From Acidiferrobacteraceae bacterium (GTDB taxonomy: Bacteria; Pseudomonadota; Gammaproteobacteria; Acidiferrobacterales; SZUA-150): DNA of 35,986 bases. Every line of letters starts with the position of its first letter. Position 1 is the stretch's first letter. The stretch spans positions 1 through 35,986 of the forward strand of contig QIGL01000106.1 of NCBI GenBank assembly GCA_003228915.1, given 5' to 3'. The notes under the pieces were generated by a model. It saw only the letters and a list, made by a program, of their open reading frames with translations, was not told the DNA's origin and searched no databases. The position numbers and the translations under genes were made by a program. This document shows, one piece after another, positions 30,945 to 32,349 of this stretch.

Positions 30945-30993
30945 GTTTTAACAATATCCTGAAAATAGAAAAGCGCCCCTTTCGGGGCGCCAT
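30886..30993 (-). CDS. Possible arginine-rich leader peptide overlapping argD (uORF)
   Basis: An ATG at 30993 with a well-placed Shine-Dalgarno (GGAG, five bases upstream) opens a 35-codon frame that overlaps the argD start out of frame. The peptide begins MAPRKGRFSIFRILLKRVR and has seven Arg and three Lys. Codons 2-7 lie in the stem of the terminator-like hairpin. It may be chance, since the hairpin sequence itself encodes A-P-R-K-G-R, but position and composition suit a translation-sensitive leader of an arginine gene. Confidence 0.3.
   Translation of the reverse strand: MAPRKGRFSIFRILLKRVRTFNEYLWTPARYLRPW
30961..30990 (-). terminator. Terminator-like hairpin in the argD leader
   Basis: On the minus strand GCGCCCC-GAAA-GGGGCGC forms a perfect 7-base stem with a GNRA tetraloop (30990-30973), followed by TTTTCTATTTTC. 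It lies 16 bases before the argD GTG and downstream of a TATAAT box (31073-31068), so it looks like an attenuator or the end of a short RNA of about 100 bases. Confidence 0.6.
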
Positions 30994-31181: not shown

Positions 31182-31212
31182 AAAAAAAGGCCCGGCAGAA
31201 CCGGGCTTTTTT
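31182..31212. terminator. Rho-independent terminator after the PuuD-like gene
   Basis: GCCCGG (31190-31195) and CCGGGC (31201-31206) pair around a 5-base loop, flanked by an A run before and a T run after, so it is usable on both strands. It closes the minus-strand unit of the PuuD-like protein. Confidence 0.85.
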
Positions 31213-31249: not shown

Positions 31250-31753
31250 CTAGCCCCAGAAAGCCGCGCCATGAGCAGCCGTACCGGTGACCATGAAAAA
31301 CAACATAGGAATGGACAGCATGGTATTGGTGCGTGATGCCAGCATGGCAATACGGGCGGCCTTGGCTTTTTCGTCAGCACTGGCTTCGACCATGCCCAGT
31401 ACTTTTTTCTGGTTTGGCCAGATCAGTACCCAGACATTAAACAACATGATGGTGCCTAACCAGGCGCCCATGCCGATGGCGGCAGACGATCCCTGGAGCA
31501 TGAAAGCCGCACCAAAGATGCCCAGTTTGCCCAGGTAATATGAGCCACTTAACCAGGTAACCAATGCAGCCCAGCGAAACCAGAGTAATGCCTTCGGTGC
31601 GATAATTTTGGGGACAATGTCGGCGGCAATGCCATCTGCCTTGGCCTTGCCCATGGCCGGGATCTGGACAAAGTTAAAGTAATAAAGCAGGCCGATCCAG
31701 GTAATACCGGCCAGGATATGAATATAACGATCCAGGATTAGTGCTAATTCCAT
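31250..31753 (-). CDS. Urate hydroxylase PuuD-like membrane domain protein
   Basis: A 167-residue integral membrane protein with about four membrane spans (roughly 5-28, 57-80, 85-110 and 140-165). The opening DRYIHILAGITWIGLLYYFNFVQIP and FNVWVLIWPNQKKVL near 104-118 match the membrane domain of PuuD-type urate hydroxylase. Full-length PuuD proteins have in addition a periplasmic cytochrome-c domain with a CxxCH motif, which is absent here, so this is a stand-alone membrane-domain version and urate oxidation is uncertain. H12 and nearby Trp/Phe residues could be part of a cofactor site. The ATG has TAAGG nine bases upstream. A single-span microprotein precedes it on the same strand. Confidence 0.78.
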   Translation of the reverse strand: MELALILDRYIHILAGITWIGLLYYFNFVQIPAMGKAKADGIAADIVPKIIAPKALLWFRWAALVTWLSGSYYLGKLGIFGAAFMLQGSSAAIGMGAWLGTIMLFNVWVLIWPNQKKVLGMVEASADEKAKAARIAMLASRTNTMLSIPMLFFMVTGTAAHGAAFWG

Positions 31754-31832: not shown

Positions 31833-31934
31833 TCACATACCAATCAGGAAATTTTTAACAATCACGTAAAGGATCACAGTCAATACTGCGCCGGAGACGA
31901 GGGTTCCAATGATGGAGTCCAGCGGATTTTTCAT
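31833..31934 (-). CDS. Single-span membrane microprotein (33 aa) upstream of the PuuD-like gene
   Basis: A 34-codon frame encodes 33 residues: a short start MKNPLDSIIG, a hydrophobic span of about residues 8-26 (TLVSGAVLTVILYVIV), then KNFLIGM. The ATG at 31934 follows TTAGGGAG with a six-base spacer, an excellent ribosome site, which is the main reason to believe it. It ends 79 bases before the PuuD-like ATG on the same strand, and no terminator separates them. Small single-span subunits of this kind accompany respiratory or haem-containing membrane complexes (CydX, CcoQ types); a partner role with the PuuD-like protein is inferred. No family recognised. Confidence 0.6.
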   Translation of the reverse strand: MKNPLDSIIGTLVSGAVLTVILYVIVKNFLIGM

Positions 31935-32349
31935 TTTATTCTCCCTAACTAATTGAATTTATTAATAAATAATTAAAATAATAGTTGACTGTTTTAGTCG
32001 GGCGCAAGCGTATGTCAGAATCTTCTGGAATACAAGTCAAACTCATTGAGGGTATTACGGATAGTGCTGCAATATTGGCCTGAGTATGAGCGGGGTAAAT
32101 AATATTACATGTGAGAGCGTTGATTAAAACTGTAGCAATATCAATGTATTAGAGTGAAAATACGTGTAATCTGACAATACGTAATGGACAGGAAGGCAGT
32201 GGCTCATGGTTTATAGTACGCCGTCATTTTTTAATCACCGACTTGCCTTGACCTTCAGCACTAAAAAAACGATTATACCGGCGCTTTTGAGCCGGTAGAA
32301 TCAATACCGACTCACTATAAATAATAACGAACCTCGATAAAGGAGATCC
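31935..32349. other. Gene-free divergent region between the microprotein and pdhA
   Basis: No gene was found. On the minus strand TTGACT (32040-32035) with a 17-base spacer to TGACAT is a possible, imperfect promoter for the microprotein. On the plus strand there is a candidate pdhA promoter (listed separately), a direct repeat AATACGT at 32159-32165 and 32176-32182, and a perfect hairpin TACCGGC/GCCGGTA (32276-32297) near the expected pdhA transcript start. Confidence 0.5.
32248..32276 (+). promoter_or_regulatory. Candidate pdhABC promoter
   Basis: TTGACC (32248-32253), 17 bases, GATTAT (32271-32276): a good -35 and a moderate -10, about 70 bases before the pdhA ATG. No PdhR-like ATTGGTnnnACCAAT site was seen. 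Confidence 0.4.

Follow-up and report, generated by a model that had tools for sequence, protein, structure and literature searches.

Small membrane subunits that share an operon with a larger protein are exemplified by CydX, the 37-aa small subunit of cytochrome bd (available part of PMC4325964). The urate oxidase PuuD is built of eight helices and a cytochrome c, and its topology is reported as N-out/C-out. The same report, in the part available, also deals with short DUF989 proteins, whose four helices are equated with helices I, II, V and VI of PuuD, and which have no cytochrome c and stand in another gene context (PMC4562309). Gene clusters of the pqqA-pqqD-pqqE-puuD-serC type that also hold pyrD have been described for Hyphomicrobium and others, and a role in late PQQ synthesis was speculated there (available part of PMC12423496). 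As for regulation, type-1 sites of E. coli are described as bound by [2Fe-2S]-IscR, which represses (available part of PMC12594620).

The window, by which we mean the whole stretch of DNA analysed here, is one entire contig (C14; 35,986 bases) of a 2.66-Mb assembly. It holds a pair of genes, one for a 33-aa membrane microprotein and the other for a 167-aa protein of the short DUF989 kind. We consider it very probable that the microprotein is the separately encoded fifth helix, called TM0, of a five-helix membrane protein which has the 167-aa DUF989/PuuD-like protein as its core and which is probably controlled by IscR.

A conserved small gene ahead of a short PuuD-like gene

The gene of the single-span microprotein is located at 31833..31934 on the minus strand, exactly at the positions given by the first-pass annotation, which had named no strand. 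It starts with ATG and its translation is MKNPLDSIIGTLVSGAVLTVILYVIVKNFLIGM (33 aa). The ribosome-binding site TTAGGGAG (31941..31948, minus strand) leaves six bases between GGGAG and the ATG, just as that annotation had described, and GAGG/GGAG-like sites precede most of the microprotein relatives. A membrane-protein gene had also been placed 79 bases downstream, and it was found at this distance on the same strand (31250..31753, minus strand). Its 167-aa product, a predicted four-helix membrane protein, contains no cysteine and matches Urate_ox_N (PF06181, DUF989) with an E-value of 5.5e-20 over part of the profile.

There are 78 ORFs of at least 30 aa that overlap the final 7 kb of the window, so the bare presence of the microprotein ORF is no evidence, and we take it as a genuine gene because of its conservation. 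In all of the order-level loci that were fetched (30 of 30), a small ORF of 31-60 aa starting with MK[N/T]PLDS is located immediately upstream of the PuuD-like gene on the same strand. The alignment of these microproteins (A1) leaves out L011, whose peptide is the same as that of L009. M1, K2, P4, L5, D6, S7, G10, T11, G15 and L22 are invariant in 29 N-terminal sequences, while the C-terminal tail is free to vary. One version, at L008 (391-573), has 60 aa and a long charged C-terminal tail.

Compared with the nearest relative (L002), the microprotein codons have three synonymous and no non-synonymous changes, plus a TGA/TAA swap of the stop codon, and the coding part is 96% identical versus 86% for the 160 bases upstream. 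The pN/pS pooled over pairs is 0.30, which is a rough value because synonymous sites are nearly saturated. The synonymous/non-synonymous check proposed in the first-pass annotation thus came out on the side of a gene. It turned out that the 33-aa peptide has no family match in Pfam, NCBIfam and PHROGs. For 29 microprotein relatives compared with Pfam, any one family was matched by at most two of them, with a best E-value of 0.013, and no mention of the MKNPLDS motif was found in the open-access papers searched. In common with small subunits of the CydX kind, the microprotein has fewer than 50 aa, one hydrophobic span, a place in the operon of its partner and conservation. Together with the fused forms described below, these results show that the microprotein is a real gene under purifying selection, genetically linked to its partner and homologous to a fused N-terminal helix.

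Split and fused forms of the gene pair

We searched 60 relative genomes with the 167-aa protein, which was found in 39 (30 loci fetched), and the microprotein profile gave strong matches (E <1e-4) in 38 of the same 60. Both genes occur in 37 genomes and neither occurs in 20. The only genome with the microprotein alone (G028) is cut by a contig end, and the two with the PuuD-like gene alone are G040 (truncated) and G059 (divergent).

A scan of GTDB genomes provided 80 named loci from Gammaproteobacteria, Betaproteobacteria and records labelled Nitrospirota. In one of them (L062), from a contig titled Nitrospira sp., the core is identical to that of the order-level relative L005, and title and genome placement disagree. 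Together with the 30 order-level loci this makes 110 loci, in which the peptide profile was run on the 450 bases preceding the PuuD-like core. Immediately ahead of the short PuuD-like (DUF989) gene there is a microprotein relative in 109 of the 110 loci; in the remaining one, L140, these bases are masked. A refined profile matched at the expected place in all 109 readable loci and nowhere else in the 721 kb of the same loci. Six of the genomes came in through both collections and give two loci each, with identical rows, which leaves about 103 distinct loci among the 109. The first-pass annotation had called for a search upstream of PuuD-like genes in related genomes and had named a broken frame in close relatives as a sign against the gene; the search succeeded in every readable locus, and the broken frame did not occur.

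In 85 loci the relative is a separate ORF, with a gap of 1-165 bases to the partner. In the remaining 24 it is fused in frame, forming an extra N-terminal transmembrane helix of a PuuD-like protein of about 192-207 aa, for example in Thiohalobacter thiocyanaticus (L089). Among the fused loci, L120 is cut at the contig start, and L104 and L133 contain unread bases; these three and L084 were dropped from alignment A2, along with 50 of the 86 other loci. L068, which has no ATG start and whose reference held a stop, was dropped from A2 and A3. On the maximum-likelihood tree of the core, which is unrooted, there are seven changes between split and fused forms when the masked L140 is counted as split, and six without L140. 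The two forms are thus interchanged at least six times on the tree, and either fission or fusion may have come first. Fused forms are also found inside a split family (L135/L139 in Methylophilaceae).

The strongest evidence for the partnership is that one and the same helix is joined to the core in some loci and separate from this core in others. The microprotein behaves as a separately encoded piece of its neighbour, since the two are one protein in many other bacteria, and peptide and partner presumably associate physically. A stabilising subunit of a PuuD-like membrane enzyme had been proposed at first; the subunit part is upheld by the fusions in frame, by a co-occurrence with very few exceptions and by a gene order that does not change, and the enzyme status and the stabilising role go beyond this evidence.

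Of 299 genomes drawn from the whole phylum, 140 have a match to the core profile, and these matches comprise both long PuuD proteins and short forms (frames of about 190-235 aa). We fetched 30 of these loci, among which L165 is the window, and the short forms that could be read by script carry a more divergent N-terminal helix in the same pattern. The wider tree has nine split/fused changes, which is a rough count with L176 left out and L187 15% filled. The microprotein profile matched 8 of the 299 genomes at E 0.01, strongly in its own genome only, as it is too narrow for the divergent fused helices. The 29 loci outside Beta- and Gammaproteobacteria (L166-L194) gave no consistent gene-neighbour clue.

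Short PuuD-like genes annotated as urate hydroxylase PuuD also exist in pqqA-pqqD-pqqE-puuD-serC clusters on plasmids of two Alphaproteobacteria. In Acidibrevibacterium (L199:2838-2951), an unannotated frame between pqqE and puuD that contains MLPHDSLVGTLLAGVVLTMVLAVVAHVLASSSGL, and whose start codon is unsettled, matches the profile with an E-value of 3.3e-9. A similar frame (E 0.0036) lies between the pqqE-like and PuuD-like frames of a gammaproteobacterium (L201, about 1385-1480). In Methylovirgula (L200), the PuuD-like gene has no detectable microprotein, and some branches may therefore do without the helix. With two of three PQQ-like clusters, a small sample, these loci suggest that the peptide follows the core rather than any particular gene neighbourhood. 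The PQQ-cluster type of core was found in 1 of 398 genomes in a phylum-wide search at E 1e-30.

The AlphaFold2 model of the fused protein L089 (mean pLDDT 89.5, pTM 0.83) has a helix at 7-25, which is the microprotein part, followed by four long helices; the pLDDT per ten-residue block from the N-terminus is 87, 90 and then 70. The 167-aa protein of the window modelled alone has the same four helices (pLDDT 90.3). No sequence relative was found among solved structures, and Foldseek on the fused model returned no match at E 0.001 or better. Generic four-helix bundles were among those listed in a looser fold comparison of the fused model, such as cytochrome b6f (Z 11.7), designed di-heme bundles (Z 11.4), cytochrome b561 (Z 11.2) and the NOX5 membrane domain (Z 10.7), and as such values may mean only a common arrangement, we do not claim heme binding. 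Judging from the charged loops and the topology reported for PuuD, the core would be N-out/C-out and the peptide N-in/C-out. The two would then insert side by side, and the microprotein and its four-helix partner would assemble into one complex.

Transcription unit and a putative IscR operator

Upstream of the microprotein gene there are a -35-like hexamer TTGTAT (32030..32035, minus strand) and, 17 bases from it, a -10-like hexamer TACGCT (32007..32012, minus strand). The former, which a strict consensus scan did not find, reads TTGAAA or TTGAAT in most relatives. As a regular expression, the promoter-like TTGaAa - 17 - TAnnnT is present in 27 of the 30 order-level loci, two of which (L009 and L011) are out of register. 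In the aligned upstream DNA of these loci, a dyad comes right after the promoter-like element; its form in the window is CCCGACTAAAACAGTCAACTAT (31981..32002, minus strand), which resembles an IscR type-1 operator. A second 33-aa ORF (31945-32046) overlaps the promoter-like element and the operator, and a similar frame exists only as a fragment in the nearest relative.

About 44 bases past the stop codon of the PuuD-like gene, a hairpin resembling an intrinsic terminator (31190..31206, minus strand) would close the two-gene unit. Because this hairpin comes after the PuuD-like stop, the pair is probably a transcription unit of its own in the window. Another terminator-like hairpin with a T-rich tail (30972-30991, minus strand) is located about 28 bases before the argD-like start and could be a leader or attenuator of the arginine genes.

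The iscR promoters of the relatives carry sites like ATAGTTGACTAAA..GTCAGGTAT. We drew a search pattern from the iscR site of the same genome and the microprotein operator, and it turned out that these are the only two places in this genome matched with zero mismatches. With at most one mismatch, four matches were listed, which are the microprotein operator, the iscR promoter (both strands) and a site at C4:42216 that was dismissed, as it straddles the end of an unrelated coding region. With the pattern reversed as a control, the 60 genomes gave no match. Since both zero-mismatch sites had served to build the pattern, what is informative is how rarely it matches, together with the reversed control. 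Among the 38 microprotein-bearing relatives, only four have the operon site within one mismatch.

An independent matrix was made from 27 iscR promoters, after three of the 30 without a clear site were dropped, and was used to score the 30 order-level loci and 77 named loci of the 110, with short or masked upstream regions left out. The 30 order-level upstream regions have a mean score of 5.8, and their shuffles one of -10.2. In 19 of these 30 regions the score is higher than that of every one of the 40 shuffles, and in the other 11 it is not, which means that part of the order has a degenerate operator or none at all. Among the named loci, 21 of 77 score above their own shuffles, including several of the Thiobacillus type; five of the 21 repeat order-level genomes. 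Most Methylophilaceae have no clear IscR-like site by this matrix, and only L106 beats its shuffles.

Besides the type-1-like operator at the promoter, there is an iscR gene in the genome itself, in a cysE-iscR-iscS-like locus at G000:C23 whose flanking genes are presumably cysE and iscS. The sites strongly suggest that [2Fe-2S]-IscR would repress the unit of microprotein and PuuD-like gene, which would then be made when Fe-S clusters are short or oxidised, and the pair would probably be produced together from one IscR-controlled mRNA. Since the genome also has two weaker IscR-like Rrf2 proteins, an IscR paralogue may be the binder. Nothing relevant on IscR together with urate was found in the open-access papers searched, and a word search found neither PuuD nor urate in the main text of the Caulobacter IscR regulon paper (PMC11475020).

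Possible functions and comparison with known systems

If names in public records were followed, the pair would be a PuuD-type urate oxidase in which the microprotein serves as accessory subunit, and in fact all 56 members of A2 match PF06181 and plasmid records label such short proteins urate hydroxylase PuuD, a phrase not found in the open-access papers searched. We regard this as highly unlikely. The partner has four helices, 167 aa and no cysteine in contrast to the eight helices and cytochrome c of PuuD, and the genetic context of short forms differs from that of puuD (available part of PMC4562309). Moreover, OHCU decarboxylase and the HIU hydrolase family were found in 0 of 60 relatives (own genome included), with control genomes positive. 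PuuD urate oxidase identity was rejected, as the protein lacks the eight-helix part with a C-terminal CXXCH cytochrome c and the downstream enzymes are absent; the label PuuD is not to be read as urate oxidase in this genome. In the plasmid records (H1-H10), long and short DUF989 proteins are both called urate hydroxylase PuuD, although urate is probably not a substrate of the short ones. It is scarcely credible that the partner is a HemJ-type protoporphyrinogen oxidase with the microprotein as its subunit, in spite of the comparable length, the number of four helices and a first helix that looks much the same (HxxxxxTW...LYY, 17 columns). True HemJ (PF03653) occurs in this genome and in 48 of 60 relatives, many of which also hold the pair, the profile comparison by hhalign is not significant (probability 1.6), and the 167-aa protein has no match to PF03653 at E up to 1. 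Since HemJ is present beside the pair, replacement of this enzyme was rejected. HemY (TIGR00562) is above cut-off in 8 of 60 relatives.

Other readings turn to translation or to the neighbouring genes. The small ORF is always just upstream, and the gaps fall to 1-15 bases in many Betaproteobacteria, so translational coupling would be possible and the ORF might be a leader that controls translation of the PuuD-like gene, with no role for the peptide itself. Ten invariant residues, the synonymous-biased change, the fusion as a protein segment in 24 loci and gaps that span 1 to 165 bases make such a leader very unlikely. A place in arginine biosynthesis has an equally small chance. Among the 80 named loci, an argD-like gene comes after the pair in 47 and an argF-like gene in 44, with few exceptions on the same strand, and the window has both in this place (names read from sequence, argD also by Pfam). 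A terminator-like hairpin stands between pair and argD in the window, the neighbours differ elsewhere, and we are aware of no mechanism by which ArgD or ArgF would be connected with a bundle of membrane helices. On the upstream side in the named loci (L061-L140), we noted divergent glutaredoxin-like (12 of 80) and Rieske-oxygenase-like (11 of 80) genes, whose names are also read from sequence.

We therefore keep to the microprotein as a separately encoded helix of the PuuD-like core. From family resemblance and regulation, the most likely guess for this core would be a membrane redox role. It is conceivable, and on balance doubtful, that the short DUF989 core is a portable two-subunit membrane oxidoreductase which needs a fifth helix, in trans or fused. 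In that case, an IscR-controlled branch would replace or protect a redox step when Fe-S clusters fail, and another branch would perform an oxidation in the pathway to a PQQ-like cofactor derived from a peptide (pqqADE-micro-puuD-serC-pyrD), in which the gene of the microprotein would have been overlooked.

The analysis identifies a gene that had been missed next to the members of a membrane protein family which is widespread and which public records label as urate hydroxylase. In split lineages, work that expresses or knocks out the four-helix protein alone may deal with only part of a complex. Split and fused forms both exist in nature, so that the shedding and regaining of a helix by a bacterial membrane protein can readily be studied with them, and the IscR-like site suggests iron or Fe-S stress as the condition in which to look for the function.

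Compared with the type-1 regulon of E. coli IscR, the operator resembles the type-1-like sites at the iscR promoters of relatives; it is putative here, and the pair is not among the targets described in the available part of PMC12594620. The pqqAED-puuD-serC-pyrD clusters have the same four-helix PuuD-like core, with a microprotein relative in two of three loci (L199 and L201). They differ in gene context and in a divergent core (39-43% identity to that of the window), and the small ORF is not mentioned in the available part of PMC12423496. The 167-aa partner is itself one of the short DUF989 proteins, for which the available part of PMC4562309 describes four helices and mentions neither an extra N-terminal helix nor its gene. 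CydX sits with cydAB and is an established subunit, whereas the microprotein, a putative subunit, precedes its partner and is often fused to it in frame. The likeness drawn here between the two is one of size and arrangement. Both are single-span proteins of fewer than 40 aa that share an operon with a larger membrane protein, and CydX, like the microprotein, is conserved across proteobacteria and hard for usual gene finding (available part of PMC4325964).
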